NCBI GenBank assembly: GCA_907163375.1
Contig: CAJQUW010003421.1
Span: 62,001-126,000, forward strand
Direction: 5' to 3'
DNA: 64,000 bases
DNA from: Prostheceraeus crozeri
Taxonomy: Eukaryota; Platyhelminthes; Polycladida; Euryleptidae
Numbering within the stretch: position 1 is the stretch's first letter; each line of letters begins with the position of its first letter. Below the pieces are notes generated by a model, which saw nothing but the letters and a program-made list of their open reading frames with translations, ran no database searches and had not been told where the DNA came from. This document shows positions 21,803-53,050 of the stretch, one piece after another. Position numbers and translations under genes: made by a program.

Positions 21803-22957
21803 ATGCATTATTCAGATGATACCGTATCCGACATCTCCAATGGTGCTCGTGCTCCTGGAGTTCGCCCAAGGTCATTGCGCGGAAGCTACAATACGTGTGA
21901 CCCTGCATCCAAGAAAAGAATACTCGAGTGTGCCGAGGCACATGGCGATTTTAAGGCTGTCGCACTGGCGAATGGTGTAAAGATTCAAACTGCCCGTCGA
22001 TGGGTGAGAATGGCTGAAGAAGAAATTGAAGAAAAACCGCGTGGTGGGGCATATAACAAAAAGGTGACCAGTAAGCATGTCGAGCACATGATAACAATGT
22101 TAGAGACGAATCCTCAGGTGACTTTGGAAGAAATATAGAGCTCCCTTCAACATCAATTTAACCTTCAAGTGAATATATCCACGATTCACAGACACTTAAA
22201 GGATCAACTCTACACCGTAAAGAAAGTCTCGTTCGTGCCATCGACTGCAAATACTGAAGAAAACAAAGAGCGAAGGGCATCTTTTGTGCAGAAGATCATG
22301 GAGCTGACTGGGTCTCAAAAGGAAATATTTTACCAGGATGAGACTAATGTGAATCTATTTTGTCGTCGATCTTACGGTCGCGCAAGACGAGGAGAACTTT
22401 GTTGTGTGATTGTACCCAGTTCCCGTGGTCCTAACGTTCATTGTTGGAACCTGCTCAGCAAGCGAGGTATTGTATATTCACGCATTTGCCGCGGATCAAT
22501 AAAGCGTGATCGATATCACGAAATCATGTCTTGTGCACTCGACGAACTGTTATTGTCCCGCGATTGTCTTCAAAATGTTGTAATAGTCGTTGACAATGCG
22601 CCATCACATTCGGGCATCGAAGACATTGTTCAGACGAAAGAACAGTATGCTGGCCTTACAATTCTGCGGATGTCGCCGTATTCTGCTCCCCTCAACCCCT
22701 TAGAGTATTTATGGTCGTCCATGAAAAGCAGAATCAAGAACGTTATGTCAAGAAGAATCTTAGACGTTCTCAACACGTCAATGATTTCTGCCATGACTCA
22801 AACAAAGCACCGTCTTCGCATAATTGAAGAAACTATGCAGCTAGCCCTTAACGAGAGCAATCAGTCTGTTCAGTGTGAGGGTTATTATAGGCCTAATCAT
22901 GTATATTCTTTCTATGGTGATGTGATGCGAATGCAAGATTTAAGGTACAATATCTAA
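21803..22957 (+). pseudogene. Tc1/IS630-superfamily DDE transposase with one stop
   Basis: An HTH region (SKKRILECAEAHGDFKAVAL, IQTARRWVRMAEE) lies at residues about 30-75. The catalytic domain shows FYQDETNV (first Asp), VVDNAPSHS (second Asp) and APLNPLEYLW (Glu). By my count 36 residues separate the second Asp from the Glu. A single in-frame TAG at 22136-22138 interrupts an otherwise continuous frame. The last residues lie inside the right TIR. The protein cuts and pastes the element at TA sites. Confidence 0.85.
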
Positions 22958-25104: not shown

Positions 25105-25767
25105 TCATGGTTGTCTGAAATTATCAACAAGTTGTCTTCTCCTCCCAGTTCTCTCTTGAAACTCGAGTCCACTCGAAAGCCATGTTTCAGCCGATGTTGA
25201 TGTCTGCTCTGAGATGGCATCCGTAGGATCCATTGAATCGCCTTTTGCGATACAGAAATTGTGTGTGAGAAGAGTGATTTCCTTGGCGATCCACAAACTG
25301 ATCCTCATGAAACGTCGGTCTTTCAATGTCGATCAGAGTTCCATCAACAACTCCACAGACTGAAGGCATGCCTGCAACTTCATAGAAGTCCTGTCTGACT
25401 TTATTACAGTCCGACGAGAATCGAACATATTCTTGGAACATATTGTCGTTTATAGCGGACGTGACTCTCTGAACGCAGCGACAAATTGTCGACTCTGACG
25501 GTCCGTGTGCATCCCTTAACACATGATAAAAGCTGTTGGTCGCAAAAATCGAATGCAGCTTAAGATTTGTTCCTTTGGGGAAAGAGCATGGTTCCTTTCT
25601 GTCTCATGCTTGAGGAGAGGACCGATAACTTCCTCTAATGCTTCGTAAGTACTCTCTTGTATTCTGAAACGCTGATGAAAGTCAAAGTCAGTGTCAAAAT
25701 GCTCTCTGTTCAAAAATATTCTCGGCCTGCGGTTTTTAAACTCCCCAATAATATCAAGCAAATTCAT
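25105..25767 (-). pseudogene. Harbinger (HARBI1-type) transposase, frameshifted and internally deleted
   Basis: Three successive minus frames keep the N-terminal part (FDFHQRFRIQESTYEALEEV, SPKEQILSCIRFL), the Cys-containing helix (STICRCVQRV) and the first catalytic Asp (MPSVCGVVDGTLIDI). They then jump to a typical C-terminal tail (RRRQLVDNF). The region that should carry the second Asp and the Glu is missing. About 220 codons remain compared with the usual 350-450. The element could only move with a transposase supplied elsewhere. Confidence 0.85.
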
Positions 25768-26126: not shown

Positions 26127-27153
26127 CTGTTGACAAACGATAGCATTATTCACACAGTCTTGTCAGATGCCAGCTGCCGCTGCTATGAACCTTGTCCGAT
26201 AAATGGATCGAAAAGATTTCGCAGTCAAGTCAAACCACAGAATGTCACGCTCAGTCGCCTCACACGCTGAATAATCAATATTGATTGATCAATGAGGTTT
26301 TTAATCCAGGGATTAGTTAACCAGGATTCCGGGATTCGCTAACATCTGTTTTTAGGCAATTAAGCTGTAAGTAGTAAGCAAAACTCCACCACTGGACCGC
26401 GCAGGATGGCCGCCATCGAAAAATAGTCGCTGACGTCCCCCCCTCTGGAACGACAGAGTGTCGTGGGGGTCTTGGGCGACCGCCAGGTTGTCTTGAGGCT
26501 ATAGTGTGTGTTGTTTTTCGTGCAATCTGATGACTGTTGGGTTGTAAAATGGGATGTTTCGAGTGGAAGCAGTGCTCGGATGTGAAAACGGAGGCCAGAT
26601 TTGGATTCAGCGTGAAATTCTGCATCTGTATGGTGAGTTTCAAGTCAATCGGAGAGAAAAAATTTTCAACATTTTTCGAAAAAACGACAGAGTTAGAATT
26701 TTGGACGTTTTGGGCTGTAGCGCCAAAACGAGGCATCGGATGGGAAAACGGAGGCCAGATTCGGATTCAGCGTGAAATTCTGCATCTGTATGGTGAATTT
26801 GAAAGCAATCGGAGAGAAAAAATTTTCGCTGACGTCCCCCCCCTCGGGAGAGCTAGCTTCGATCTTGGCTTCCAGTGGACGGATTTTGTCGTGCAATAGC
26901 TTGTTTGAAAGCTAAGAGTGAGACAAATTCACTGAAAGAAACGGCTTGTTCATATCTGTCTTCGTTTAGATGTGAGACGCCATTTAAGATTTTGGGAGAT
27001 TGGCGAAAAACGACAGAGTTAGAATTTTGGACGTTTTGGGCTCTGGCGTCAAAACGAAGCATCGGATTGGAAAACGGATTTCAGATTTGGAATCAGCGTG
27101 AAATTCTGCATCTGTATGGTGAGTTTCAAGTCAATCGGAGAGAAAAAATTTTC
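26127..27153. repeat. Polinton left terminal inverted repeat
   Basis: With 23490-23497 this makes a TIR of about 1.03 kb. It matches the reverse complement of 48310-49096 joined to 57308-57557. Sequence near 26400-26900 contains internally repeated blocks with GAGAGAAAAAATTTTC and AACGACAGAGTTAGAATTTT. The open frames in it are repeat products, not genes. Confidence 0.9.
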
Positions 27154-27715
27154 GCTGACGTGCACCCCTACGCCAAACTTCCAATTTTGTTTCTAGTGGA
27201 TGGATTTTGTCGTGCAATAGCTCGTTTGAAAGCTAAGAGTGAGACAAATTCACTGAAAGAAACGGCTTGTTCATATCTGTCTTCGTTTAGATGTGAGACG
27301 CCATTTAAGATTTTGGGAGATTGGCGAAAAACGACAGAGTTAGAATTTTGGACGTTTTGGGCTGTAGCGCCAAAACGAGGCATCGGATGGGAAAACGGAG
27401 GCCAGATTCGGATTCAGCGTGAAATTCTGCATCTGTATGGTGAATTTGAAAGCAATCGGAGAGAAAAAATTTTCGCTGACGTCTACCCCTACGCCAAACT
27501 TCCAATTTTGTTTCTAGTGGATGGATTTTGTCGTGCAATAGCTCGTTTGAAAGCTAAGAGTGAGACAAATTCACTGAAAGAAACGGCTTGTTCATATCTG
27601 TCTTCGTTTAGATGTGAGACGCCATTTGAGATTTTGGGAGATTGGCGAAAAACGACAGAGTTAGAATTTCCCAAGAAACAGCTCCAGCGGGCGAATGAAG
27701 GCTCGGATTGGTAAA
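26861..27715. repeat. About 320-bp tandem repeat spanning the inner TIR edge
   Basis: Blocks starting near 26861, 27181 and 27502 repeat the order TGGATTTTGTCGTGCAATAG, GCTAAGAGTGAGACAAATTC, TGGACGTTTTGGGCT and GTGAAATTCTGCATCTGTATGG. The right TIR has about one copy, so the two ends differ in copy number. Confidence 0.85.
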
Positions 27716-29495: not shown

Positions 29496-29906
29496 ATGTC
29501 TTTCTCAAACGACTGCGGAACATTACATTTTCATAGGCAAAGTTTAAAAGGAGCTGTTCAAGATTATGTGATAAGTTTTCATAAAGATGAGACCGACATC
29601 GAAGCAGTGGTCGATGATGCTAGCACTCTATTTCTAGAGTTAATGAATACATTCTCTGATAGCATTATCATGGCGCGATTAGTTGCGAAAACTAAGTTTA
29701 GTCATTTTGGAAAGGAAGAGGTGGAAAGTCGCTCTTTCCATTTTGCTTCTTATTCAATGGAAGTGGTAGATCACCCCGAAGAATTTTTTAAAAGACATAT
29801 GATAAAAATTGCTGAACGTCTTAACGCATTTAACCATCATGGTAGCAGTCTAGTGATTGAAGCGATTTCAGATATTCACATTCAACTTTCCATAAAGAAA
29901 AATTGA
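29496..29906 (+). CDS. Polinton conserved protein resembling a PolB-associated domain
   Basis: This intact 136-aa frame contains FHFASYSMEVVDHPEEFF, IAERLNAFNHHGSSLVIEAI and a C-terminal IHIQLS strand. The SGS/SxLVIEAI-D-I pattern resembles the helical and beta module seen at the N-terminus of, or separately from, protein-primed polymerases in Maverick elements. It may be a replication accessory protein. The following gene begins 2 nt after its stop, suggesting co-expression. Confidence 0.45.
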   Translation: MSFSNDCGTLHFHRQSLKGAVQDYVISFHKDETDIEAVVDDASTLFLELMNTFSDSIIMARLVAKTKFSHFGKEEVESRSFHFASYSMEVVDHPEEFFKRHMIKIAERLNAFNHHGSSLVIEAISDIHIQLSIKKN

Positions 29907-29908
29907 AA

Positions 29909-30232
29909 ATGCAGTGGTACTTGATTGTAGCACAACTGGTTTTCGAGCTGTGTCTGCTCACTCTCGAAGTATATTCCTTCTGCACATGCGTCTATTATTT
30001 AGAAAAGGCTAGCAAATTCATATCTTCAAGAAGACTTGCTATAGACATCAGTAACGGTGAAACTATGTGTTGTGATGTATGTAAGCGAAAGGATGGAAAT
30101 GAAAAGCGCATCTTCAAGAGATGTAAGCATGCTTCTTGTCAACGCTGCTTCATACGTAATTGCATTCAACTTTGCAAATGTAACCACTGTGATATTGCTC
30201 ATTTCGAGTGTCACTTATGCCGCAATAGTTAG
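29909..30232 (+). CDS. Membrane-anchored RING-like protein
   Basis: From the ATG at 29909 a hydrophobic segment (YLIVAQLVFELCLLTLEVYSF) is followed by a RING-like C3HC4-type array: CCDVCKRKD, FKRCKHASCQRCF, CKCNHC and CHLC. The design resembles viral transmembrane RING ubiquitin ligases that act on host membrane proteins or on budding. Whether the zinc ligands form a true RING is uncertain. The gene is unbroken. Confidence 0.55.
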   Translation: MQWYLIVAQLVFELCLLTLEVYSFCTCVYYLEKASKFISSRRLAIDISNGETMCCDVCKRKDGNEKRIFKRCKHASCQRCFIRNCIQLCKCNHCDIAHFECHLCRNS

Positions 30233-30237
30233 TACCT

Positions 30238-30246
30238 ATGCAAATG
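30238..30246 (+). promoter_or_regulatory. TATGCAAA-type motif before the core-protein gene
   Basis: ATGCAAATG lies 6 nt after the preceding stop. It is 53 nt before the ATG at 30300, a gap that includes a 15-bp tandem duplication. Confidence 0.5.
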
Positions 30247-30643: not shown

Positions 30644-30652
30644 ATGCAAATG
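30644..30652 (+). promoter_or_regulatory. TATGCAAA-type motif before the ATPase gene
   Basis: ATGCAAATG (preceded by T) begins 2 nt after the stop of the core-like gene and ends 20 nt before the ATPase ATG at 30673. Confidence 0.55.
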
Positions 30653-31980: not shown

Positions 31981-32196
31981 ATGAAGCAGATGTGTTGCTT
32001 ACGATGTAATGAGCCGCCAGAGGTAAATGTCATTGTCACTTGCACTTGCTGCGCCAGCTCTCACAATGAAACCCCTAAGCAATGTGAACACGATCGCAAA
32101 ACCGCTAAAGCTAAATGCTGCAGTTGTTGTAAATGTAGAAAGGCAAGAAAACAAAAAGATGAGAAGGAGGAAAAAGAGTCAGTCGTCATCGACTGA
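31981..32196 (+). CDS. Small Cys-rich protein overlapping integrase
   Basis: The 71-aa frame starts one base after the previous stop. It has Cys pairs (CCLRC, CTCC, CCSCCKCRK) and a highly charged tail. It overlaps the integrase start by 38 nt in another frame. It could be a zinc-binding protein or a detached remnant of an integrase N-terminal zinc domain. Confidence 0.4.
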   Translation: MKQMCCLRCNEPPEVNVIVTCTCCASSHNETPKQCEHDRKTAKAKCCSCCKCRKARKQKDEKEEKESVVID

Positions 32197-33246
32197 ACGT
32201 TTGAAGTCAATCTATTATGATGTAAAACATCCGGCAGGATTTGCATCTGTCAAGAAATTATCAAAAGCGAGTGGTCTTCCACAATCACAAGTGAAACGAT
32301 GGTTAAAGGGTCAGGCTACCTATACACTCCACAAACAAGCGAAAAAGAAGTACCGCACCCGCCATTATATTGTTCATGACATCGATGAACAGTGGCAAGC
32401 AGATTTGTGTGATGTCGCCTCCATTTCAAAACATAACTCGGGCAATAATTTTATTTTAACCGTCATTGATATTTTCTCGCGTTATGCGTGGGCTCAACCT
32501 TTAAAAACTAAAGAAGGGAAAGGAGTAGCAAAAGCATTCCAAACAATTTTTCGAGAAGGTCGCATTCCAAAAAGAATTCAGAGTGATCAAGGAAAAGAGT
32601 TTGAAAATCAGCATGTGAGAAGATTATTTGAGAGGCATGACATTGAGTTGTTTAGTGTAAAGAGTGCCTATAAAGCTGCACTCGTTGAACGTTTTAATCG
32701 CACATAAAAAATCGCTTGCGGCCACATTTTACCGCCAACTTGACACAAAATTGGACAAAGGTTCTACAAGATACACTCCATGCCTACAATTACTCTATCC
32801 ATCGTTCTATTGAACTCAGACCAGTAGATGTAAATGCTGACAATGTAGATAAAGTGCGCGAATCATTCCAACGTAAACGCACTCATGTGAAAAGTGATGT
32901 GAAAATTGGTGATAAAGTTCGTATCTCAAAAGTGAAAAGTGTTTTTGATAAAGGGTACCTTCCGAATTGGACAGAGGAGGTATTTACAGTATCAAGGATT
33001 AATCAAAAAGACTCTCCGACCACCTACAAGTTGAAAGATTACGATAATGAAGAAATTGAGGGTAGCTTTTACCGCGATGAGATTGAGGTAGTCACTGAAA
33101 GTGAAACATATTTGGTAGAGAAAATCATTCGATGTAAAAAACGGCAAGGTGAAGAATGGTGTCTTGTTAAATGGACTGGTTATCCTTCAAGTATGAACTC
33201 TTGGATGCGTCGTGCCGACATCTTTCATCTAAGTGATCGACAGTGA
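32159..33246 (+). pseudogene. INT: Retroviral-type integrase with chromodomain
   Basis: From the ATG at 32159 there is a basic start, an HTH-like segment (SGLPQSQVKRWLKG) and the rve catalytic core with WQADLCDV, RIQSDQGKEF and ALVERFNRT, giving the D, D and E residues. A frameshift in an A-run at about 32705-32711 separates the core from the C-terminal half. That half has an SH3-like region (GDKVRISKVKS) and a chromodomain (YLVEKIIRCKK, WCLVKWTGYP, NSW). Polinton integrase inserts the element. The chromodomain may guide it to marked chromatin. Confidence 0.93.
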
Positions 33247-33249
33247 TTC

Positions 33250-33257
33250 ATGCAAAG
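33250..33257 (+). promoter_or_regulatory. TATGCAAA-type motif before the pVI-like gene
   Basis: ATGCAAAG begins 4 nt after the integrase stop and ends 30 nt before the ATG at 33288. Confidence 0.5.
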
Positions 33258-33745: not shown

Positions 33746-35024
33746 ATGGAGTGTAAAACTTCCGGTTTTTGTTTGTTTGATCAACAAGCCATACAGACAG
33801 ATATTCTTAGTTCAAGTATTGTAGATTATCATCCTCGAACAGCTGAGAATGCTGGCCCCATTGAATTTGTTATTCCTGGTGGTAGTGATGACTACATAGA
33901 TTTGAGTTATGCGATGGTTGATTTGAGGTTTAGAATTCACCAAGCAGATGGAACTGCTATTGACGATACACATAAAGTTGGACTGAACAATTTACCATTG
34001 ACTACATTACTTCGCGATGTTTCTCTAACGATTGGAGAGCAGCAGGTGGAAGGTGGTCAAAGCGATTATCCCTATAAATCATATTTCAATCATGTATCAC
34101 AGTTTCATCCAGCAGCACAAAAAGGTCATATGGAAGCCATGGGATGGTATAGAGATGAAGCAGGAAAATTTGATGTTGAAACAAACAGTGGCTTTGTAAA
34201 GCGATCTGCTATGATTAAAGATAGTAGAGTATGTCAGCTATATGGTCCGCTGAATTTAGACTTCTTTAGACAGTCAAAGTTTTTACTCTGTAATACCAGC
34301 ATGCGACTCAAGCTGACATTGAATAAGCCTGAATTTGCGCTGAATGCATTTGCTAAAGTTGACAATTTTAGAATTCATGTGGAAGATATTGCACTTTACA
34401 TTCGTCGAGTAGTACCGAATCCAAGTGTCATTAGAGGACATGCTGAAGGTCTTAACCGCCAAAATACCATTTACCCCGTTCAGCATACAAAGCTTCTGAC
34501 CTTTACAATTCCGAAAGATCAAAAGAGTTTCATGAAAGATGGCCTCTTTCCATCGGAAGCACCGAAGCTCCTCATGGTGGCAATGGTTGAAAATGATGCA
34601 TTTAATGGTAATATAAAGAAGAATCCTTTCAATTTTAAACACAATCAGTTAAGTGAAATTGCTTTAATGTGTAAATGGTGTGAGTCATCCTGGTCCACCC
34701 TACAAACCAGATTTTGCTGCGGATCAATTTATGCGCAGTTATGTTGATTTTATGGATGTCTTTGGCTTTTACAATACGGATGACACCAACGGACTCACTA
34801 TGAAAGAGTTTAAGAGTGGATATACTATTTATGCATTTGATTTGACTGCTGACAGCGATATTAGTGCCCCCTATCGTCAAGCGAACGTGCCTCATAATAT
34901 TCGTTTGGATTTGACGTTCAAAAGAACACTACCTGAGACAATCAATATATTAATTTATGCAGTCTTCGATTCAAATATTGAAACTACAAAGTATCGTGAC
35001 GTGATTCTTCAGTATAATCGTTAA
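33746..35024 (+). pseudogene. MCP: Double-jelly-roll major capsid protein
   Basis: The N-terminal part has IEFVIPGGSDDYIDL, LPLTTLLRDVSLTIG and the central CNTSMRLKLTLNKPEF. A frameshift lies near 34664-34680. Beyond it the frame continues with FAADQFMRSYVDF, FDLTADSDI and NIRLDLTFKRTLPETI. Total coding length of about 425 codons is below or at the low end for the family. This builds the icosahedral shell. The stop overlaps the protease start (TAATG). Confidence 0.9.
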
Positions 35025-35485
35025 TGAGTTGGTTGACTGCTGACGATATTAAGACTAAAGTGCAGCGTAATGCAGACGAAGCGACGTTGAAAGCTTTCGA
35101 TAATGTCTATTCACTCGATACCTTACCACCTGCAGTAAATCACTATCCCATCTTTATTGTGCTAAACACTCATTCGCAGAATTTAGGCGGTGAGCATTGG
35201 AAAGCGATCTTTATTGGAGAAGACCGACGTGGTGAACTATTTGACTCTCTTGCTCAACCTCCAAATGTACCAACACAGCAGTGGTTGAGAAAACATACGC
35301 GTCAATATCAGCGAAATGAACGCATACTACAACATCCACTTTCATCAACGTGTGGTGCTTTTGTACTGTACTTCATCTTAAAACGTTTACATGTATCTCG
35401 ATTTGTATCTGTTATTCAAAACTTTTCATGTAATCCATCCTCTAATGAAAAAATGATTTGTAAGTTCTATCATGATTTGAAATAA
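35024..35485 (+). CDS. PRO: Adenovirus-type (Ulp1-like) cysteine protease
   Basis: This unbroken 153-aa frame carries the catalytic His in NLGGEHWKAIF, the acidic residue in GELFDSLAQPP, a Gln in LQHPLSS and the Cys in STCGAFVLYF. These C5-family proteases cleave virion precursors during maturation; the GG sites in the pVI-like protein are candidate substrates. It starts inside the MCP stop. Confidence 0.92.
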   Translation: MSWLTADDIKTKVQRNADEATLKAFDNVYSLDTLPPAVNHYPIFIVLNTHSQNLGGEHWKAIFIGEDRRGELFDSLAQPPNVPTQQWLRKHTRQYQRNERILQHPLSSTCGAFVLYFILKRLHVSRFVSVIQNFSCNPSSNEKMICKFYHDLK

Positions 35486-35516
35486 AAACATCATGTTGGA
35501 AAAAGTGTTTTTTATT
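35481..35516. terminator. Back-to-back poly(A) signals between convergent genes
   Basis: AATAAA on the plus strand (35481-35486) serves the MCP/protease unit. TTTATT at 35511-35516 is AATAAA for the minus-strand TBP-like gene and overlaps its stop codon. Confidence 0.6.
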
Positions 35517-36057
35517 TTACAATCCGCTGGGTACGTACATACTCGATGAGATAGTCAAGGATCACATTTGCTTGTACATGACATTTTAATCCAGTAATGA
35601 TCACTTTACTATTATGAAAGATTGCCACATGCACAGGTAACCAACAACTAATGAGAGCTGCAGGAAAAAGTTCGGGTTCATAACACAAATTGTAACTGCT
35701 GGTACGAATCTTCAAAAATGATACACTTTCACTCAATTGAGTAGAGATCACCATATTGTCCACAGTCAGATTCGACATCACACACCTCTCCCTCTTCCAT
35801 ATCCGACGTAGTAGTCTTTGTAGCTCTAAGCGCATTGACTGCGCCGATGAATGAGAAAGGGCGCCGAGAATCTGTACAGTCCCATTTGGGAAGAGTTGAA
35901 GATTCCGTGAATTGTTCATCTTCACCACTAACATTTGAGGTCGGCCCGGGTAATACTTGCTGTTTGGAAGGTGTTGGTGTAATGTTGTGAGATCGATTTT
36001 GGTGTAGAGTCTGAAGCGGCGGAGAATGTTGACGATGGTGTAGCGATGGCGCTTCAT
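35512..36057 (-). CDS. TATA-binding-protein (TBP)-like protein
   Basis: From the ATG at 36057 this gives 181 aa, the size of a TBP core, and shows the two pseudo-repeats of TBP. Repeat 1 (residues about 6-85) has IVNILRRF, KIDLTTLHQHL, KYYPGRPQMLVVKM and LQLFPNGTVQILGALS. Repeat 2 has LCYEPELFPAALISC, HVAIFHNSKVIITGLK and a final helix VILDYLIEYV. The YEPELFPA and SKVIITG blocks are hallmark TBP motifs. TBP bends TATA DNA and recruits TFIIB and polymerase. The frame is open and lies in a tail-to-tail position with the capsid genes. Longer starts exist (36201) but add non-TBP sequence. Confidence 0.85.
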   Translation of the reverse strand: MKRHRYTIVNILRRFRLYTKIDLTTLHQHLPNSKYYPGRPQMLVVKMNNSRNLQLFPNGTVQILGALSHSSAQSMRLELQRLLRRIWKRERCVMSNLTVDNMVISTQLSESVSFLKIRTSSYNLCYEPELFPAALISCWLPVHVAIFHNSKVIITGLKCHVQANVILDYLIEYVRTQRIVK

Positions 36058-36379
36058 GATGAAAGAATGAGTAAATTGAGCGATGTACCTTCCTTTTATA
36101 CTTCTCCCAACTACCTTGATGAAATGTGAAGTTAGTATGAAGTTGGGAATGATAGAGTTGAATTCGCCGATTGTTGACGCGCAGCCAGATGCGATTTCCA
36201 ATACGTGAATGTCTTTTCATATAGAAGTATTTCAAATCCTTCATGATATGATGTAGAGATTGAAAATGACGATAAGATAAAGCAAACTCTCTTCTCACAT
36301 TTCCAGTTGAATCTTTGAAATAGACGTTTCGATCATGATCCGTTTCAATACGTTGTAGGGAATCTAATTTCCAACTCAT
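35729..36379 (-). CDS. Polinton paralogue A with overprinted tail
   Basis: Residues 1-107 match the neighbour at 36402-36758 (W.LDSLQ.I...D.NVYFKDS, R.F..L..IM.DL.YF, WEKYKRK.HRSI). The remaining 108 residues (PPLQTLHQNRS, SNVSGEDEQFTESS, DMEEGEVCDVESDC) are acidic and lie entirely over the TBP-like frame in another register. The compact beta-rich domain is faintly reminiscent of PC4-type ssDNA-binding folds, a weak inference. The domain is unbroken. Confidence 0.55.
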   Translation of the reverse strand: MSWKLDSLQRIETDHDRNVYFKDSTGNVRREFALSYRHFQSLHHIMKDLKYFYMKRHSRIGNRIWLRVNNRRIQLYHSQLHTNFTFHQGSWEKYKRKVHRSIYSFFHHEAPSLHHRQHSPPLQTLHQNRSHNITPTPSKQQVLPGPTSNVSGEDEQFTESSTLPKWDCTDSRRPFSFIGAVNALRATKTTTSDMEEGEVCDVESDCGQYGDLYSIE

Positions 36380-36401: not shown

Positions 36402-36758
36402 TTAAGATTTGCATAGTAGGGCGATGAACTCACGACGAATAAATGTCATGATGGAGCGATGTATGTATCTTCTATACTTCTCCCAATTGTATTTGCGAAA
36501 TGAGAAACAGTTTGCGGAATGAGAATGGCAGATTTGAATTTCATTTCTGTAATGTTGAAGCCAAACTTGATCACCCAAGGAGATGAATCTTAATGTTTCA
36601 AAATATTCCAAATCCCTCATGATATCATTGAGGTTGACAAATTGTCGCCATGTTAATATAATACCTCTTGATGTATGACCATGAGAATTTTTGAAATGTA
36701 CGTTTCCATCACGATCAACTCTGATATATTGTAGAGAGTCCAAAATCCAAGTCTTCAT
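36402..36758 (-). CDS. Polinton paralogue B
   Basis: This 118-aa protein (first true ATG at 36758) contains WILDSLQYIRVDRDGNVHF, LTWRQFVNLNDIMRDLEYF and WEKYRRYIHRSIMTF. It ends where the shared domain of paralogue A ends. Its last codons contain the motif that precedes paralogue A. Tandem duplication is clear from the shared residues. Function unknown. Confidence 0.6.
   Translation of the reverse strand: MKTWILDSLQYIRVDRDGNVHFKNSHGHTSRGIILTWRQFVNLNDIMRDLEYFETLRFISLGDQVWLQHYRNEIQICHSHSANCFSFRKYNWEKYRRYIHRSIMTFIRREFIALLCKS
36407..36415 (-). promoter_or_regulatory. TATGCAAAT motif before paralogue A (minus strand)
   Basis: Read on the minus strand the sequence is TATGCAAAT, located 27 nt before the paralogue A ATG at 36379. 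Orientation follows the gene, as at the plus-strand sites. Confidence 0.55.
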
Positions 36759-36763
36759 GATGT

Positions 36764-36773
36764 TATGCAAAGT
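36764..36773 (+). promoter_or_regulatory. TATGCAAAGT motif before the first structural paralogue
   Basis: TATGCAAAGT ends about 20 nt before the ATG at 36794, in the divergent spacer with the minus-strand paralogue B. A TATAAAA also lies directly before this ATG, and read on the other strand it could serve paralogue B. Confidence 0.55.
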
Positions 36774-36793: not shown

Positions 36794-38191
36794 ATGTCGT
36801 TTTATCATATTTTGCTTAGCAATGCGGCCGCAAATAGATTTGCTAGTAATCGAGCCGCACTCTTTTCTACTCCCATTGATCATACACAACAGCTAAATGG
36901 AAATTGGGAAGTGGGTGTCACTCAACTTGTTTATAGCAACTGTGTCTATACTTTTGATCATGAGGTGATGACTATTAATATGAGACGTACAGCTGCTTAC
37001 CAATGTGAAAAGGGCTGCCGAGTATACATTCCACAGTGGCCAAAGAAAGATCTCTTATCATGTAAAAAGTTTATATATGATTTCCTGAATAAAGCGTGTA
37101 AACATATTGTCCAATTTACTCCGCACAATGATGATCATACTTATGTACATCATGTAGTTGAGAAAGATTGGATTGTTGGTTTAAGTCCAAGTTTAAGAAA
37201 TGATTTAGGTTACCTCGCTAGCGCCTTAACAAGCTATGATAATTTTAACGTTAATTACCACATAAATGGTTATAAACAGTTAATATATCGAGAGGAAGCT
37301 TATTATGTAGATCTTATTCCAAGAAATGAGAAGACGTTGGTGAAGAAGATTGTGATTAAGGCAAGAAAGACAAACATGAGTCCTGAAACATTATTGAAGA
37401 AATTTAATTATCTCCTTCGAGTTGATGGTAAACAAGTGGCAACATTGACTTATATCAAATCATCTAATCATATTGCAATAAGTAAATTAAATGATGATAA
37501 TCTAGTATTAGTTTGTTCAAAAGATTTTCATCAGTTCTTACGACATCATTCTGCAGCTGTTCATGGAAAATTTGATATGCAACATTTACCATGTGAAAGG
37601 TCAAATCAATTTGATACAGAATGGAGCGTATCTTTATACAGAAAGTGTGTAGAGCCTTTAGGTGGTATCTTACATGAAACAAGAGTGTTGATGCCTCGCA
37701 TTATTACTTCAGTTAAATTGGTTGTAGATTATTTAAATGAAATGATTAATGAGCAACATATTTCATTTTCTGAAAAAGAAGGTACTTTGTCTCTCACTAT
37801 AAGTGGAAAAGGTATTGAACTAATTATGGATAAAACTCTAATGGACATTTTGGGTTTTGATCAAAATATCTTTAAAAGTGGTACTGTAACCAAAGCTAGC
37901 GCAGACATGTCGCTATCGCGTCGTATTAACTATTATCAGATATATTCCAATATTGGTGAAGATGTACGTGTGGGAGATGTTGAAGCTCCATTGCTAGCAA
38001 TGATACCATACCAGCCAAAAAGCTGCAGTATTTTATCTGAGCATACTTTCAAGAAAGTGCATTATACAAAGCTGAAATCAAACTACATCCCACAAATTGA
38101 TATTGCAATTTATGACAATGCTGGTGCGTTGATTCCTTTTCATAAAGATGCTGTGACAAGTATCACACTCCATTTCCGAATGAAGAGCTAA
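36794..38191 (+). CDS. Large structural-type Polinton protein, paralogue 1
   Basis: This unbroken 465-aa frame has an N-terminal motif (FYHILLSNAAANRF, LNGNWEVGVTQLVY) and a conserved late block (YYQIYSNIGEDVRVGDVEAP). Both occur in the second copy at 38223-39745 (EGEWEVGVSSICY and LYIQSDLILPISVG). The GEWEV plus LY.YSDI...VGD layout is a recurrent Maverick/adintovirus protein found beside capsid genes. A virion-surface or assembly role is likely but unproven. Confidence 0.6.
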   Translation: MSFYHILLSNAAANRFASNRAALFSTPIDHTQQLNGNWEVGVTQLVYSNCVYTFDHEVMTINMRRTAAYQCEKGCRVYIPQWPKKDLLSCKKFIYDFLNKACKHIVQFTPHNDDHTYVHHVVEKDWIVGLSPSLRNDLGYLASALTSYDNFNVNYHINGYKQLIYREEAYYVDLIPRNEKTLVKKIVIKARKTNMSPETLLKKFNYLLRVDGKQVATLTYIKSSNHIAISKLNDDNLVLVCSKDFHQFLRHHSAAVHGKFDMQHLPCERSNQFDTEWSVSLYRKCVEPLGGILHETRVLMPRIITSVKLVVDYLNEMINEQHISFSEKEGTLSLTISGKGIELIMDKTLMDILGFDQNIFKSGTVTKASADMSLSRRINYYQIYSNIGEDVRVGDVEAPLLAMIPYQPKSCSILSEHTFKKVHYTKLKSNYIPQIDIAIYDNAGALIPFHKDAVTSITLHFRMKS

Positions 38192-38199
38192 TGCAAAAG
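38191..38199 (+). promoter_or_regulatory. TATGCAAA-type motif before the second structural paralogue
   Basis: ATGCAAAAG starts at the last base of the preceding stop codon and lies about 24 nt before the start region of the next gene at 38221-38223. Confidence 0.45.
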
Positions 38200-38222
38200 T
38201 ATGCTAATATATTTTTTCCAAT

Positions 38223-39745
38223 GTGAATAATGTGGAAAGTGAAAATAAGGACTCGTTTCTAATCTACTTACCCAGTAATGCTTCTATGAATAAATTTCCC
38301 AAAAATAAACCATCAGACTATCGAGTAGAATTAAATCGCCCACTGCATTTAGAAGGTGAATGGGAGGTTGGCGTTTCTAGTATTTGCTATGATAGCAATA
38401 TTCAGAATGTGAATGATTTGGAAGAAATGATATTGACTCCTCGCACCCATGATGGAATAATGATGAATAATGCATTCCAGTTCCCATACAATTTAACATC
38501 AGATGGATGAATGAATGGATTCAGATAAAATCAGATTATTATGAACCATTTGGGAATCAGAAAATTATTAAGGCGTTCAATAGTGGTAATACTTCCATCA
38601 TGAAGAATAAAAATCAGAAAGCTTATGAGTTTACTATCTATCATTGGATTGGGAGACAGTTCCTTCGCTTTCATTCTTTTACTAAAGGTCTTACACTGAG
38701 GTTGGATAATGAATTCTATCCACATCTCGGTTTTGGTCATGGACTACATCTAACGTCAATTGCTACTGCAAATGTTAAAAAAGTTTATTCAAATCGAATC
38801 AACAAATTTTATTATAGATTTAAAATATTTGATGGAGATGTTGTAGAATGTGAAGAACGCATCATTTTGAAAAAGCGTGGTGTTCAACCTTTATCACTTA
38901 TTGAGTTAGTAAAACGATGGAATGAGACTGTGGATAAGAAGTATGGAGAGAAAATTATGGCGGAAAAAAATAAGTTGGTTATTCAGAAATATAATGACAA
39001 TTTTACAGTTTATTTTTCTCCAACCTTGCGTCATTTTGTAAGACATTATACACCTATCATTGGAAGCGGTGTGGTGTATGGTTCTCATGAATATCACACT
39101 AAAGCTGATTCAGTTAATGATGAATGGTGGGTGGACATCTATGGTGATCGCATCAAGAAAATTTACCAGTCTTATGAAGAATCTAAAGTTGCTATCAATA
39201 TAATGCCGCGTCTATATCATACAGTTGAAAACTTCATTCATGTAGTAAATCCTTATATACAACAGAAGTCGAAGCATGTGATGAAAAGTAAATATGATGT
39301 AAAGACACACCACATTTCGTTTTCAATTGAAAATCAACGCGTTGTTCTGAAACTGGGTGATGACATTCAATGTCAATTGAGTAAAAATTTGAAACAACTC
39401 TTTGGTTTTTCAATGCTACAAACTGTGTTTACTGCTGCGCATACGATTGGTATAGAAACACCAATGACACTTGATAAACATGAACAACACCTTTACATTC
39501 AAAGTGATTTGATTCTACCTATTTCTGTTGGCGAGGAAAAAGAATACATTTTACGTGATTTCATTCATGATAAAGACGCTTCATATGGAATAGTCGAGAA
39601 GATGTTTGAATCTATTTTCTATCATCCCGTCGTCAAACAAACTATACCCTCTATTACTATCAAAATTACCAATGGTTTACAAGAGTGCATCCATGTGAAA
39701 GATACTAAATCCCTCGTAACTTTAGTGTTTCTGAAAACAAAGTGA
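38223..39745 (+). pseudogene. Large structural-type Polinton protein, paralogue 2
   Basis: About 505 codons in two frames: 38223-38510 and 38507-39745, joined at an ATGA/ATGA/ATGG repeat near 38505 where slippage probably shifted the frame. No in-frame ATG sits at the expected start. An ATG at 38221 is out of register by two bases, so the start may also be damaged. Motifs SFLIYLPSNASMNKFP, EGEWEVGVSS and LYIQSDLILPISVG align with paralogue 1. Its role is presumably the same. Confidence 0.6.
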
Positions 39746-39923: not shown

Positions 39924-42900
39924 TTATGTCAATACATCTCCTGAATGTGGTAGCGTGAGTTTTATTCTTTTGGGTGGAGGTATGTTTGTGTCAGGATGTC
40001 CATGTGGAAGAGATGTGTTATGTCCTATCCAACACCTCTTATCTTCCCATGCTGAAAGCGCTCGTTTCTTGAACGTGTGCGTCTTCACAGTATGAACTTG
40101 AGATTTTAAGATTGTCAGATTGACAAACGTTATAGTTTTATTTTTATAGGCCTTCTTATAGGACCGATGTTTCATTTTGTGAACAATGGATTTTGATATA
40201 CCTTTAGCACGCTTAATACTATCTGCACATTCTTTTAATTTCATGGAATACATTTTAGGACGGAGGAGAATCATTTCATCTATTTCCTTTCCTGCTGTTT
40301 CATCCTTAAAACAACCAAGTTTGGCTTTATTCTGTATGGAATAGAGTGGATGAGTGGGATTGTAGTTAGATGTGTCGAAATATTTTTCTAATGACTTACC
40401 TACTTCATTAAAATTTAAATCTTTTTGAGTGATAATTCCTAAAAAGACACTATCTGTATCACCACCCAGCAAGCGAACCTCTTTTACGAGAGGGCATGGT
40501 TTTAATATTTTGTAGAAGAGTTGATACATTTCAAGCTTGGAATAATCTAAAACGGCTTGCCCAATATAGATGGGTTTGCACAACTCAACTTCAGATTTTA
40601 TCATTTTAACACCTACAAGATCCTCATCGATGATGTCTCTATCAATGAAAAGAGGTGATGAGGTCAATTTGTGATATTTTTGTTCATCAACGACTAGTTT
40701 GTAGTTCATACGTTTTCTAACATCCTCCATGGTCTTTCCGAAAAGACTGTTATTCTTATATTTATAAAAATCCTTTTCAAAATTATTTTGGGCGAGTGCA
40801 CGTTTTTGACTGTTACTATCTATGTAGGGTTTGAGGAAGGCTTTTTGTCTGAATTTGATAATGCGGTGAACTGACTTTAGAAGCATGCCCATTTCTAAAT
40901 AGAATTTTAGTATGCAGAAGTGCACGAGATAATTTTTCTTATCATATTGGGTGAGCAAAAGTTTGCGGCATGGTTTGTACCTTGGCTGTCCACACTCTGT
41001 TAAGCTATTATGAAATTGTGACATGAATGGTGAAAACATATCTTCAGTCACTTCACCAGATTCAGGTGCGAGTGGGAAATCAGCAGTTTTATTTTTAATA
41101 CTATTTGGATAAATCAAATCCACTTCAAAATAATATCCCCAATCACCTTCATCTGGAATCTTCAGAATGTTTGAAGGGTTGGAGTAATACGTAAGCTCAT
41201 CTTGATTTAACCAACTAAACTCGGAATGAGGTAGTGGTTTCGACAGTGAACTGCCATATAAATTATTTTGGTCATAGTACTTTAGGTGGATATGATCATT
41301 ACCTACTGTTTTAGATTTTATGTGATGTTTATTCACAAATGTGAGACCACCGCGTATTCCGCGCTCAAATATGTTATACATCTCCGGGTCTTGTAAGAGA
41401 TGGATGGTCTCACCAGTCATTTTAAAGGCTGATTTAAAGGACATGGCTGGTAGACTGACAAAGTGGACAGGATCTAATTTGTCTTCTTCTAATGCCACTC
41501 GTCGAAATTCCTGAAAGACATCAGCCAGCAAAATGACATCTAATTCTAAGTAAGCGATCATATAATCGCCAAACGTTTTACAATCAAATTTTAACCATGC
41601 CTCTTGAGCATGTTCATAGTCCTCTACTGGACAATCTTGACCCGTCAAATCGTTTTGGAATTTGTCAATGGAAGGAAGGGTTGTTTCATTTAGTTTAGAC
41701 ATTGAGCTAAAATACGCATAGGGAAAGACTCCTTTGCGAGTGATTATTTCATCCGTTAAGTTTGGATAGTGTTTCTTCAAAGTTTAACTATGGGGAAGAA
41801 ACTTGAGATTACGAACGAGAGAAGCTAGTGACGCTGACATGAATTGGAATGAATCTAAAAAATTTATTTCGAAGAAGACTCTCTTATTTTCTTTAGTTTT
41901 ATCTACTGGTACTTTTGCTGTCATTGTCATGAATTTTTCTCTCGTTTGCGCTATTACATTAAACTGCCACGATTTCATCTGGCTCAACCCTCCTTTTATT
42001 ATCATATGACTGTCATAGCCCTTAAAGTTATGAAAAATGACGGGTAGAGCACGACGTCTCAACCTAAGTGAAAAGTTACATTTGGAGCAGAGTGCGTTTC
42101 TAAATTTACCAGTGATGTGATCATGATCACGCACTTTCTTAATTTTATCGTCATCAAACGTTTTATGACATTTAGGGCACGATGTGCAACTTTCAAATTT
42201 TTGTTTGTCTTCATCTGACATATGTAGTGACTTACGCTGCAATTGGGAATCATATGATTGTTGAAATTTAGCAGCTTTATCGAGAAATTCTAGAAATTTT
42301 GAAATGCAATCTTCACCTTGCCAAGTATGCATTTTGTTTTGTCTATTCCTAAAGTGGTCATGCCATACTTCATAGCAGGATATGGCTGCTGGCTTGTGGA
42401 TGATATCATCAATGTAGCATTCTATGTCTGCGTAAATGACAGGCAGGGGACTTAATTCGTCACCATTATCCCTATGTGAAAATATTTTATCTTTGGCCAT
42501 GCGTTCCATTTGTAATTTACCTCGCTTGCACCATTCATAGTGAGTTTCAAATTTATCTTTACTCCAAAAGGAGCGGATGCAGCGGTCGCATACAAAATGT
42601 TCACCTCTTTTAGAGTGCCCCAAGTGTGTGTACAAGCGAGAGATTTTGGGAATACCACAGTAGTGCCATTCCTCGCTATCATCTTGTTTTACTAATAAGA
42701 GGTTGACTACACGTTCATAACAAGTTGAACGTGAATTATAGCGGGCACCCTTCAACCCCTTCTCCCACACGTGAACGACAATTTTAATCTGATTATGTTT
42801 TTCGAACGTTTCTACATCTTTGATTTTCATGTTGTCACTATCACAACCTTCAAAGTCTAGTTCATCCTCCCACTGTCTATAGCTATAGGTGCGATCTCGA

Positions 42901-43897
42901 TGCGCGTTGATATCATTATAGTGAAGGATGGATAGGACTGCATATTTGAAACACTGTGATTTACAATCGACATTGATGACAGCTTTCTTATTATACAACG
43001 TTTTTGGTAGTTTAAATGTGCCTCGAGCTGCATGACTTTCTAATAGGGAAATTTTGAATATGGCTGAGTCCACACCATCAAAAATGAGAGCGCTGTCGCG
43101 TTGATTGAATTTATCTACATTTGATTTTAAACATTGAATGTGAAAATTTAGCCAAGATTCGCAGTCTACAACTTCGGTTGCGGAAGAGGAAGGAACATGA
43201 AACTGTATTCTCTCCGTCACTTGACCCGTTTGAAAATCTATCTTAATATATTTTAGTTTAAGGTAGATGAGCGCCTTCATTCTAAAATTGTCTAAATTTT
43301 TGAAGAGCGCTTCGATAATGTTAGAATTTTGAAGGAACCACTCAGGAAAATCTACTATTTGAGTATTGGACTCCATGCAGTAGTCGCGTACTAAATTATT
43401 GTGTGAAACATTAATGAGGGAGATGGTAGAGGTACCGTTGTTGTAGTGATCATTTACATGCGTGTGTTGAAGTCTGTGCGAAGATCGCTGAAAGTGACTA
43501 TCAAAAGAAAGAGGGCACAAATCGCAAGGAAAGGAGATGTCATCGTCAGAATCAACTTCGCCTCCGGAGATTGACGCCGCTTTGCGTTGACACACACGTT
43601 GTTTGATGTGTCGAAGGAGACTGTGCTTCCTTGTAAACATATGTCCGCAGTCGTCACATTCCCCTCGTTGCCTTGTCGCGAGAGTCCTGAGCTGGAACTC
43701 ACATCACCTGAAAGAGAAATCATTCTATCATCTCTGTTCAAGTTTCAGTGTATTGTTACAACCTACTTTGACTCAACAACTCTAAACTTTCCTCGAGAAG
43801 GGAGGGCGTTGGTGATGGAGTTGATGCCTGAAATTGAGGAAGATGCTATTAGCCACACGTTTGAGGGAGATGAGTGAAGAAATTTTCAACTTACCAT
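39924..43897 (-). pseudogene. POLB: Protein-primed family B DNA polymerase, spliced 5' end
   Basis: The main frame has C2H2-type zinc fingers (ECDDCGHMFTRKHSLLRH, FPCDLCPLSF, FVCDRCIRSFWSKDKF) and exonuclease motifs PVIYADIECY, FHNFKGYDS and YLELDVILLADVF. The polymerase motifs are YYDQNNLYGSSLSKP (A), KYKNNSLFGKTME (B) and GGDTDSVFL (C). One in-frame TAA at 41784-41786 splits it. The first exon is only an ATG (43897-43895) abutting GTAAGT. Exon 2 starts at 43827 with ASTPSPTPSLLEESLEL. A further short intron or a frameshift near 43668 is needed to join this to the zinc-finger frame. Confidence 0.93.
43828..43894 (-). other. 67-bp leader intron of PolB
   Basis: Minus-strand GTAAGT...CCTCAATTTCAG directly after an ATG. 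It has the same length as the left-gene intron and is alignable with it. The exon that follows starts GCATCAACTCCATC compared with GCATCTACTCCATC in the left gene. Confidence 0.75.
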
Positions 43898-48309: not shown

Positions 48310-49096
48310 GAAAATTTTTTCTCTCCGATTGACTTGAAACTCACCATACAGATAGAGAATTTGACGGTGATTCCAAATCTGAAATCCGTTTTCCAATCCG
48401 ATGCTTCGTTTTGACGCCAGAGCCCAAAACGTCCAAAATTCTAACTCTGTCGTTTTTCGCCAATCTCCCAAAATCTTAAATGGCGTCTCACATCTAAACG
48501 AAGACAGATATGAACAAGCCGTTTCTTTCAGTGAATTTGTCTCACTCTTAGCTTTCAAACGAGCTATTGCACGACAAAATCCGTCTACTGGAAGCCAAGA
48601 TCGAAGCTAGCTCTCCCGAGGGGGGGGACGTCAGCGAAAATTTTTTCTCTCCGATTGCTTTCAAATTCACCATACAGATGCAGAATTTCACGCTGAATCC
48701 GAATCTGGCCTCCGTTTTCCCATCCGATGCCTCGTTTTGGCGCTACAGCCCAAAACGTCCAAAATTCTAACTCTGTCGTTTTTTCGAAAAATGTTGAAAA
48801 TTTTTTCTCTCCGATTGACTTGAAACTCACCATACAGATGCAGAATTTCACGCTGAATCCAAATCTGGCCTCCGTTTTCACATCCGAGCACTGCTTCTAC
48901 TCGAAACAGCCCATTTTATAACCCAACAGTCATCAGATTGCACGAAAAACAACACACACTATAGCCTCAAGACAACCTGGCGGTCGCCCAAGACCCCCAC
49001 GACACTCTGTCGTTCCAGAGGGGGGGACGTCAGCGACCATTTTTCGATGGCGGCCATCTTGCGCGGTCCAGTGGTGGAGTTTTGCTTACTACTGCT
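48310..49096. repeat. Polinton right terminal inverted repeat, inner part
   Basis: Reverse complement of about 26370-27153. It is cut at about 49096 by the fold-back insertion and resumes at about 57308-57557. The point of interruption is clear because the left TIR keeps the uninterrupted sequence near 26365-26390. Confidence 0.9.
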
Positions 49097-49489
49097 GTAT
49101 AAAGATGAAGTAACAAGAAAGTAACAATGAAGATAAACGTATTTCATTGCTGCAAATTGCAATGCTGTTATATTTGAAACTTCCTTTTTCATTATAATAT
49201 TAGACTTAAACTATCAAGAACACAACAGACACGATAGTCTTATAATTACATGTAAGTGTGCATTACTTATTCATACATTTTATCATATACTAGAAATAAT
49301 TTTAGCGTATGTTTGTGCAGTATGCCAAAAATTTACTTTCATTGATATTGATCAACAAATAAAACTGTTCAGGCAGCCGAGAGAAAGAAAGAGCATTATG
49401 CATGACAAGCGTATTAATATTTAATGAATTTTTAAAGCGATTATTACAGAATATCGATCTTTTACCAGACGTCACAAAAGTCTCGGTAT

Positions 49490-50854: not shown

Positions 50855-53050
50855 CTAAATGATTTTAACAGTAGGTGCACCCTCGTGACGCCTGTTCAAT
50901 TCTAGCTTACGAAAATCGATCAAACGAGATTCCATCAAACTTGTCTCAATCGGATCATGCACACACTTTAAGAAATTGATATTGAAGCTATCTATGTTGG
51001 TGCACGGGTTGCAAAATTTTATATGATCGCTCAAGGCGCTATGACAATCACGCTTGATGATGCTATTTTTATGTTCGTTATACCGCAAACGGAACGGCCG
51101 AGCAGTTTTTCCTATATATTTAAAATTACAAAATTTACACTCTAATTCATAAACAACGCATGATTTATCACAATTATACTTATCAGGAAGTTTTACGCAG
51201 ATTTCACAATTGCTATGTTTTTTACACGGACTCTTTCTTTTCATAGCCTGGCGCAGTTTCTTATTTCCGGTAGTTACAAAGTTGATTTCTAATTTGTATC
51301 TACGAATGTTGTAATTAATTTTTCTTATTAAACTATCGCTGACAAAAGGCAACTTTAGTGTACATTTCCTACTTATTGATTTTGTATTATTTATGCTATC
51401 ATTTGATCTGTGTTTATTTTTAGTTTTGTTGCACTTCCTTTTGTCATTGTTAGTATATCCGTTCAATTTTAAATTACTTTTACACGCTTCAATGTCTGCC
51501 TTCATGGCTTCGGCAGGCAAAGTCGCACTACTACGAATTTCTATGTCATTAACTTTTTGTTGGACAAAATTCGTTTTTACAAAGCTGGGTAGCCAACTAT
51601 CTTTTTTAAGAGAATTACCGGAGGAGATCTCTTTGACATATTTCTTATGGGTTATTTTTCCATTATTTGTCCAAACCGCTAAATCTAGGAAGTTCAATCT
51701 ACCGGTATGTGGAGATTCCACGGTAAATTTAATATTGTTGTCAATCGAATTAAAGGTCGTACTTATTAAATCGAAAGTGTCAGAATCTCTTTTGAGGGGA
51801 CCTATTATAATGTCGTCAATGTATCTTTTATAAATAATGTTATCAAAATTGAGCTGAGCTCTAATGGCAACAATAGCTCTTTCTTCTATACTGTTCATAA
51901 ATATGATTGCCAGTGGTGGGGCATAGTGTGATCCCATGGGAACATCCTTAATCTGGAGGTAACTTTGATCATTAAAAGCGATCTCATAATTATAAGACAC
52001 GAATTTTAGCATAGTGAGAAATTGGTCTACAGTTATATCAAAATTATCTATCTGTGTCCAATGCTTATGAGCGAATAAATTTACAGCATCCAAAGCAGGG
52101 GCTATCGGAATCCTGGGGTAGAGATTGACCACATCTAAAGATATGAACATGCAGTCTTCACTTATCACTTCAGTATAACTTTTAAATATATCTATAAGTT
52201 CCAGAGAACTTTTAAATGTGCAGGTACAAAGTTCACAAGTTGATTCAAAATACGGCCGCAAATCCAATCAACTTTGTTAATAGGGTTATTGGTAACCGAA
52301 GCAATAGGCCTGAGAGGATACTGATTACATTCACTTCTCTCTTTATGATCTTTGATCAACGCGTAGAAATTTGAAGGTCGGCTTCCCGAAACATGCAAGC
52401 GCTGCAAATTCGATTTGCTCAAGTTATCTTTAAAAATATTATTTATCAGTGTTCACTTGCTTCTCTAAACTATTTTTCTTACTTTTATTGATTGGCTTAT
52501 ACGTGGATCTGTCTTTTAAGATCTCCTCAGTTCTAGCTATCATTTATGAGGCTTTCGTGACACAAAGTCTATTACTTTTATCGGTAGCTGTAATCATAGG
52601 GTCATTTTTGTCAAGAAATTTTTTACTGTTTCGCATTTTTTTATTGAAACTTGTACAGCGATCTTTGTGTTTGACATGAGACACTTCAGTTTTAACAGCT
52701 TCAATTATTTCTTTTTTGAACAACAGCAAATTGACTTCGTTTTCGTTATCCATGCAATTGGGTAACGTGACAGTACTTTTAAGAAAAGGTATGTTCATAA
52801 AGTCATTATTGCCATTGTCATTTCTACGCTCGAGGTTAAATTTCCAAAGCATATTATACGTCAGTTTTTCTAACGCTAATTCAACATCATCCATAAACTC
52901 ATCGGAATTCAAGTTTGGTGGAATCCTGAAATTAGGGCCTTTTTGAGAATATCAATCAAGTCAAATGGTAAATCAATGTTCGTTTCGTTCGTGTACAAAT
53001 TACAAGATGCGTCACGAGAATGTTATAGAAGCTTACCCAACTGGTACTGC
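50855..53050 (-). pseudogene. Penelope-like element polyprotein (RT plus GIY-YIG), nearly complete
   Basis: The N-terminal part (52912-52544) has NDPMITATDKSN. The middle (52422-52192) has FYALIKDHKE and RPIASVTNNP. The RT core (52267 leftwards) has CMFISLDVVNLYPRIP, KDVPMGSHYAPPLA and the catalytic YKRYIDDIIIG. A basic Cys-containing linker (SPCKKHSNCEICVKLP) and a GIY-YIG endonuclease follow (VVYELECKFCNFKYIGKT, RPFRLRYNEH). It has at least two frame breaks near 52250 and 52540. The endonuclease nicks the target and the RT copies the RNA. Confidence 0.92.

Follow-up and report, generated by a model that had tools for sequence, protein, structure and literature searches.

A minus-strand frame of 181 residues at positions 35512–36057 of the window (the whole stretch of 64,000 nucleotides of DNA that was analysed) is, as judged from its sequence, a two-lobe TATA-binding protein (TBP) encoded by a Polinton/Maverick element, and chance resemblance to this family can be ruled out. 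The frame is stop-free in translation, and an upstream TTG start in the open reading frame (ORF) listing would lengthen it to 229 residues. The sole Pfam-A family identified on the 181 residues is TBP (PF00352), with an E-value of 5.6e-20 and a score of 71.4 bits, above the curated cut-off of 22.9 bits. Since this family is matched in two stretches, the two TBP-like pseudo-repeats that a preliminary description of this DNA had pointed out in the frame are both real; used as separate profiles, the N- and C-lobe align to each other with an E-value of 7e-7. The comparison with TBP profiles proposed in the same description gave a clear match. Profile-profile alignment (hhalign) with two eukaryotic TBPs yielded a probability of 98.3%, and a profile built from 62 family members matched the archaeal TBP 2z8u with an E-value of 1e-24, positions 2–176 of 180 being covered. 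Ten NCBIfam models for TATA-box-binding proteins were also matched (best E-value 2.3e-18), all of them under their own curated cut-offs. A PDB search with an E-value limit of 10 gave 35 sequences, each a TBP or a construct holding one; one entry carries only the locus name ECU04_1440.

The element and its genes

The TBP gene lies in an element of 22,724 bp (26370–49093), which is bounded by terminal inverted repeats of 784 nt and by a 6-bp target-site duplication. Repeat comparison places the left terminal repeat, beginning with AGTAGTA, at 26370–27153 and the right one at 48310–49093, with 98.6% identity between them (11 mismatches). The duplicated target site, GCTGTA, is perfect on both sides (26364–26369 and 49094–49099). 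The presence of just 11 mismatches suggests a young insertion, provided that both repeats were equal at insertion. The left terminal repeat continues into a tandem repeat of 321 bp with about three copies (26680–27669), part of which lies outside the 784 nt common to the right end. The terminal repeats, the 6-bp duplication and an rve-type integrase agree with the earlier assignment of the gene to a virus-like element, which is taken here, from these sequence features, as a Polinton/Maverick, an integrated virus-like transposon.

On the plus strand, the integrase with its chromodomain (32027–33246; rve 4.6e-11, Chromo 2.1e-7) is split over two frames in the window copy. It is followed by a frameshifted capsid-type gene from the ORF listing (33746–35024), which we take to be the major capsid gene; it has no Pfam match, and its profile gives no credible solved structure in the PDB. 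Next comes a putative Ulp1/adenain-type cysteine protease (35024–35485), matched by Peptidase_C48 at 8.9e-4 (19.6 bits, 1.1 bits below the cut-off of 20.7) and by Peptidase_C5 at 0.045. A pair of structural-type paralogues, recognized from the ORF listing and locus comparison, occupies 36794–39745; their structural role is presumed and is without profile support. The TBP gene thus has the protease on one side and the structural paralogues on the other, as originally described.

A stop-interrupted frame on the minus strand (39924–43640) is predicted, from the domains of its homologues, to encode a family-B DNA polymerase (PolB) with an endonuclease VII domain. The PolB piece itself and its closest listed homologues give no match to a polymerase family. 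The prediction of family B is therefore indirect, via more distant whole-length homologues (e.g. P0155, 58% identity) that carry PF03175. The endonuclease VII domain is found in the N-terminal half of the frame (41784–43640, minus strand), and PF02945 (endonuclease VII) is listed for many of the PolB homologues too. An ATPase-type frame (ATG at 30673) has just a match to a phrog annotated 'ATPase' at 0.0016. The preliminary description had most large genes of this copy broken, and the TBP frame open. This holds for the integrase (two frames, near 32707), PolB (a stop near 41784) and the capsid-type gene (a shift near 34660), but not for the protease, the gene at 36794 and the small-protein frames, which are open; the TBP frame is open as claimed.

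Two small proteins are encoded on the minus strand next to the TBP, as seen in the ORF listing and the copies compared. The first (35729–36379) is in frame +2 relative to the TBP, and its C-terminal tail, acidic by eye, overlaps the TBP gene. The second (36402–36770) is its paralogue, for which no Pfam match and no credible PDB match could be identified. A PC4-like nature of both proteins, an idea formed by eye, was dropped, with no PC4 in Pfam and nothing in NCBIfam. The comparison of a small-protein profile with the PDB gave adiponectin at 0.0049 (the stretches fail alone) and two weaker rows. In the early-type gene cluster a small cysteine-rich frame looks RING-like by eye (29903–30232, plus strand), with no notable Pfam match. 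Around the element, Penelope-like reverse transcriptases and Tc1-like and Harbinger-like transposases could be recognized by eye (frames at 2512–3165, 22169–22957, 25187–25522, 50855–52267 and 57790–58218). An open frame of 519 residues (4305–5864, minus strand) has the look of a DEG/ENaC channel and is probably a host gene or a retrocopy.

Copies, relatives and origin

The genome search covered the 2.05-Gb assembly that holds the window. With the protein as query, all 150 scored copies, including the window copy, were stop-free and 99–100% identical over the 181 residues. As scoring was confined to the top 150 among 11,870 first-look candidates, the number of open copies is a lower bound and is biased towards good copies. 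In the search with the Pfam model all 150 scored rows were above the cut-off; four were host TBP/TRF2 rows, and 8 of the 146 non-host rows had a stop in the matched lobe. The host controls comprise a canonical TBP (L001, L003; C9306) and a TRF2-like gene (L002; C3829). These two genes, together with the assembly size, suggest that the host is an animal.

From the fetched genome pieces several TBP subfamilies could be drawn, with identities to the subfamily of the window (F1) of 82% for F1b, 42–44% for F2, about 43–45% for F3 and 40% for F4. The order capsid-type gene, protease, TBP (minus strand) and structural gene is common to the F1, F1b and F2 pieces, and three F2 copies keep the order around a TBP that is just 42–44% identical. 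The F3 loci (L020, L021, L022, L025–L028, L030 and L035) were seen in pieces that stop short of the element ends. TBP and PolB were matched in all nine, and early-type genes (28881 or 28114 type) in seven of eight. No capsid-type, protease, ATPase or integrase match was found within the 6.5 kb of each of these eight, and the ninth, L030, had no protease or structural-type gene on testing those two. Besides TBP, the stretch seen holds early-type genes and a PolB in convergent orientation; in L030, two inverted TBP genes have mirrored PolB pieces in between. Because F3 keeps TBP and PolB with no capsid-type genes in the stretch seen, service to capsid genes can hardly be the only use of the TBP.

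The proximity of TBP and PolB in F3, with no capsid-type genes seen, would also suit a TBP that serves replication or integration, for instance at the terminal repeats and together with PolB, rather than initiation. We consider such a role improbable, since replication does not call for the two glutamates that contact TFIIB, which 135 and all 139, respectively, of the family proteins compared below retain.

In the public protein collection, 61 relatives were found at 1e-3 with the single sequence. A profile search gave 1060 matches at 1e-5, the best 120 of these 1060 all being at 1e-59 or better; cellular TBPs may be among the matches beyond these 120. Together, the two lists contain at least 138 different relatives, known as proteins without genomic context. 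Neither the single protein nor the family alignment identified a TBP relative in IMG/VR, where no relative of the capsid-type gene was found either. The GTDB contigs held no relative of the element TBP, and a microsporidian TBP used as scan query matched nothing. With a mixed TBP alignment as query, 12 IMG/VR TBPs were found, of which L078 was partly read and two pairs differ little or not at all; as several look archaeal by eye, they serve as controls of mixed origin.

A tree was made from 39 rows of our choice, i.e. 27 family proteins, host TBP, host TRF2, a microsporidian protein, two archaea and seven IMG/VR TBPs. The 27 family proteins, among which three subfamilies of the host genome are represented, group together apart from all other rows with 100/100 support, their common stem being 2.4 changes per site long. 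Within this clade, the subfamilies of the host genome are interleaved with the public relatives. AU tests were performed on a 28-row tree without the long-branched L071, L075 and TRF2 and without some family rows. They rejected a clade of the window TBP and the host TBP (p-AU 1.4e-81), as well as one of the host TBP and three copies of its own genome (p 6.6e-5). Tree and AU tests speak against a recent capture of the host TBP and, in answer to the choice between host capture and old viral TBP raised at the outset, favour an old viral-type TBP.

A source for capture is at hand in the host, TBP being a host gene and both the canonical TBP and the TRF2-like gene being present. Still, a recent capture of either is highly improbable in view of the rejected host clades, the single fully supported clade shared with public relatives and its long stem. 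Moreover, identity with the host TBP is limited to 17 of 84 residues in the N-lobe and 19 of 64 in the C-lobe; the AU tests covered the host TBP, and TRF2 was included in the 39-row tree only. As to the deep origin, the AU tests are compatible with either a eukaryotic (p 0.458 for the element clade with eukaryotes) or an archaeal-type TBP (p 0.086 with archaea) as the source of the clade.

Residue pattern and selection

Residues were counted over 139 proteins (the window TBP and the 138 listed relatives), which were gathered by similarity to the window TBP, so that shared residues are favoured. Residue numbers and contacts are given after yeast and human TBP. In the C-lobe, the DNA-contacting Asn159 (N101) and Val161 (V103) are kept in all 139 proteins, as are Pro191 (P132) and Phe207 (F147); Phe190 (F131) is kept in 138, and Thr215 (T155) in 137, with Ser in the other two. 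The TFIIB-contact glutamates are also conserved, E127 in 135 proteins (Asp in four) and E129 in all 139. The N-lobe retains Phe116 (F56) in all proteins and Asn69 in 115 (23 gaps, one Asp). It has Pro for Phe99 (P40) in 133 of 139 (three gaps), Gln for Leu114 (Q54) in 135, Gln for Val122 (Q62) in all, and Leu or Met for Thr124 (position 64) in 132, with Phe in seven. The residues at these changed positions are F, L, V or N, and T in four cellular TBPs that were aligned. The Pro/Gln/Gln pattern was found in none of these four, nor in any of the 11 readable IMG/VR TBPs (nine different). The Glu that contacts TFIIA is replaced by Lys in 109 of 139.

The element TBP thus combines a canonical C-lobe with an N-lobe whose canonical DNA contacts have been rewritten, a pattern common to almost every one of the 139 proteins. 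Three of the four DNA-kinking phenylalanines are kept, the first one of the N-lobe being Pro in the 133 proteins mentioned. The loss of one kinking Phe makes a canonical TATA binder less likely, and leaves the assignment to the TBP family unaffected.

With its TFIIB glutamates kept and its TFIIA-contact positions and one kinking Phe changed, such a protein is competitor-like, and might act against the host, binding TFIIB or DNA with little initiation and thereby dampening transcription or blocking host TBP at the element promoters. We regard this as unlikely, since the common upstream motif described below, which is kept in F1b, points to a promoter class of the element's own.

The element TBP is under purifying selection despite a second reading frame over its 5' half. 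Copies of F2 compared with copies of F3 give dN/dS values of 0.27–0.42 at dS 1.1–1.6. Near-identical pairs within subfamilies, with a handful of changes, give erratic values between 0.1 and 3.8, and the reading of selection therefore rests on the distant pairs. The second frame is the tail of the gene starting at 36379, which covers the first ~108 TBP codons (35729–36057, minus strand). Six copies (three related ones of F3 and one each of F1, F1b and F2) have this frame open for 308–338 nt into the TBP, a length reached by synonymous shuffles of the TBP with P 0.0002–0.0016 per copy. Between F1 and F1b, dS is 0.579 and dN 0.140 in the part that codes for TBP only, versus dS 0.283 and dN 0.069 in the overlapped part. 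The shuffle P values and the halved dS in the overlap agree, so the 5' half of the TBP gene is very likely dual-coded, the overlapping gene being probably real. The second reading frame over the N-lobe could have shaped N-lobe residues.

Upstream motifs and proposed function

The sense-strand motif ATGCAAA lies within 70 nt upstream of six out of 19 element genes, and in 1000 dinucleotide shuffles no 7-mer attained six genes. The six copies precede the gene at 30300 (30238–30244, plus strand, 62 nt before the gene), the ATPase-type frame (30644–30650, plus, 29 nt before its ATG at 30673), the gene at 33288 (33250–33256, plus, 38 nt), the 36379 gene (36408–36414, minus, 35 nt), the structural-type gene at 36794 (36765–36771, plus, 29 nt) and the structural-type frame at 38223, which has a GTG start (38191–38197, plus, 32 nt). 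The gene starts were of our choice, three of 22 being dropped; for the ATPase-type frame, 30673 replaced 30625 as the start once the motif had been seen. The unadjusted count is five of 22 starts. The whole element contains eight copies of ATGCAAA. At four of the six genes the sequence is TATGCAAA, which resembles a TATA box with a central G and C.

In F1b, five of these six genes are again preceded by ATGCAAA, the exception being the ATPase-type gene with TGTGCAAAT. Over four upstream stretches compared between F1 and F1b, one of which (38223) is identical throughout and hence uninformative, the motif letters agree at 28 of 28 positions, versus 97 of 134 in the flanks (Fisher p 0.0003). In F2, ATGCAAA occurs before none of 12 genes. 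AAGCAA is found there before six of 12 genes (P 0.026 over all 6-mers; P 0.059 for the best 7-mer), in a set that reaches beyond the F1 motif genes to include the 31287-type and 33746-type genes. The pattern TAAGC, spotted by eye and post hoc, precedes five of 12 genes (P 0.004 when this pattern alone is considered). By eye, TAAGC or TAGGC stands before both 30300-type copies, the ATPase-type and 33288-type genes and both structural genes, which is the F1 motif set minus the 36379 gene.

The TBP gene has a different upstream sequence, TATAAAAGG (36092–36100, minus strand), 43 nt before its start codon in the upstream comparison. TATAAA is found at a similar distance in seven of nine other loci (absent from L019 and L022); as it also codes for Y-K-R of the overlapping frame, its conservation is no evidence by itself. 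A canonical TATA box as the common promoter was rejected, TATAWA being present within 110 nt of just five of 22 starts, and at -17 to -48 in three.

We propose that the element TBP probably serves as a core-promoter factor of viral type, by which host TFIIB and RNA polymerase II are recruited to the promoters of the element. It would bind the element's own core promoters, where the three remaining intercalating phenylalanines would bend the DNA; the kept C-lobe glutamates would dock host TFIIB, and TFIIB would bring host RNA polymerase II to the element genes. Programming of host RNA polymerase II would fit both the kept TFIIB-contact residues and the common upstream motif. The changes at known TFIIA-contact positions suggest that control of the host TFIIA/TFIID type may be bypassed. 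No TFIIB domain was found among the 36 frames of at least 90 residues in the window copy of the element.

More speculatively, the target may be the ATGCAAA situated 29–62 nt before six genes, which the rewritten N-lobe might tolerate, and F2 would then use another site. We put forward, with considerable doubt, an extended version in which an asymmetric TBP would read the GC-centred TATA variant TATGCAAA at the structural genes and commandeer host TFIIB and RNA polymerase II without a viral TFIIB, the code having shifted in a sister subfamily (TTTAAGCAA-like), for the most part before the corresponding genes, as protein and promoters co-evolved.

For this motif step there is a serious competitor, to which we give somewhat less than an even chance, namely that a host factor, of POU type or another kind, recognizes ATGCAAA, or that the motif denotes the start site, with the TBP uninvolved. 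Because host POU factors have ATGCAAAT as their octamer site, ATGCAAA may be unrelated to the TBP. In addition, at five of the six genes the start codon follows after 29–38 nt, a spacing that also suits a start-site element with a short leader, and F2 lacks ATGCAAA. The resemblance of ATGCAAA to a TATA box with two central changes speaks for recognition by the TBP instead, as does the fact that the N-lobe is changed at residues whose contacts lie at the centre of the box and in one of its halves.

Comparison with known systems

The element TBP resembles the cellular TBPs (PF00352) of eukaryotes and archaea in its two lobes, central asparagines, TFIIB glutamates and three of the four kinking phenylalanines. 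It differs from them in its N-lobe (Phe to Pro, Leu to Gln, Val to Gln and Thr to Leu/Met) and in the frequent change of the TFIIA-contact Glu to Lys (109/139); moreover, the window TBP is encoded by a transposon.

TBPs are encoded by giant viruses and mirusviruses (PMC7221094, PMC10132985, PMC12085832, PMC11464507), with which the element shares a TBP encoded by a virus-like genome. PMC7221094 describes viral TBPs of two lobes in which DNA contacts are partly kept and contacts with host regulators lost, and a TFIIB-like protein in almost all TBP-bearing viruses, with none in poxviruses. In contrast to those viruses, the present element is just 22.7 kb in size, keeps the TFIIB-contact residues and has no TFIIB homologue in the 36 frames of at least 90 residues scanned. 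An orthogonal pair of viral TBP and TFIIB, of the kind described in PMC7221094, was therefore not found in these frames.

ORF24 of KSHV is described in PMC12529657 as a gammaherpesvirus TBP mimic for a separate promoter class (TATTWAA). Its DNA face is more polar than that of TBP and it is without the TFIIB glutamates; its four Phe are retained and required, and five other viral factors act together with it. The element TBP would be similar in being a viral TBP with a more polar DNA face and, putatively, a separate promoter class. Unlike ORF24, it has lost one Phe and kept the glutamates.

With Polintons/Mavericks and adintoviruses the element has in common the terminal inverted repeats, the 6-bp target duplication, the rve integrase, the predicted PolB and the putative cysteine protease. 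In the open-licence PMC literature no TBP was found in Polintons/Mavericks or adintoviruses, and the terms TATA and TBP are absent from the papers on adintoviruses and Polinton-like viruses that were examined. According to PMC10675990, TBPs are present in repeats of Cymbomonas, in elements of putative mirusvirus origin without Polinton-type DNA polymerase and capsid genes. No mention of TATA was found in PMC10328495, on the background of Maverick origins.

General initiation factors are known from giant viruses, mirusviruses and herpesviruses, and a TBP in a Polinton/Maverick would be new as far as the open-licence literature shows. Polintons/Mavericks have a central place in thinking about how the DNA viruses of eukaryotes arose. 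A 22.7-kb element that brings a TBP of its own, with no TFIIB among its scanned frames, would represent a minimal step towards transcriptional independence. The predicted combination of TBP, motif and host TFIIB is open to tests with purified components, and a natural TBP with one lobe rewritten may help to ask how TBP reads DNA and which of its host contacts are dispensable.
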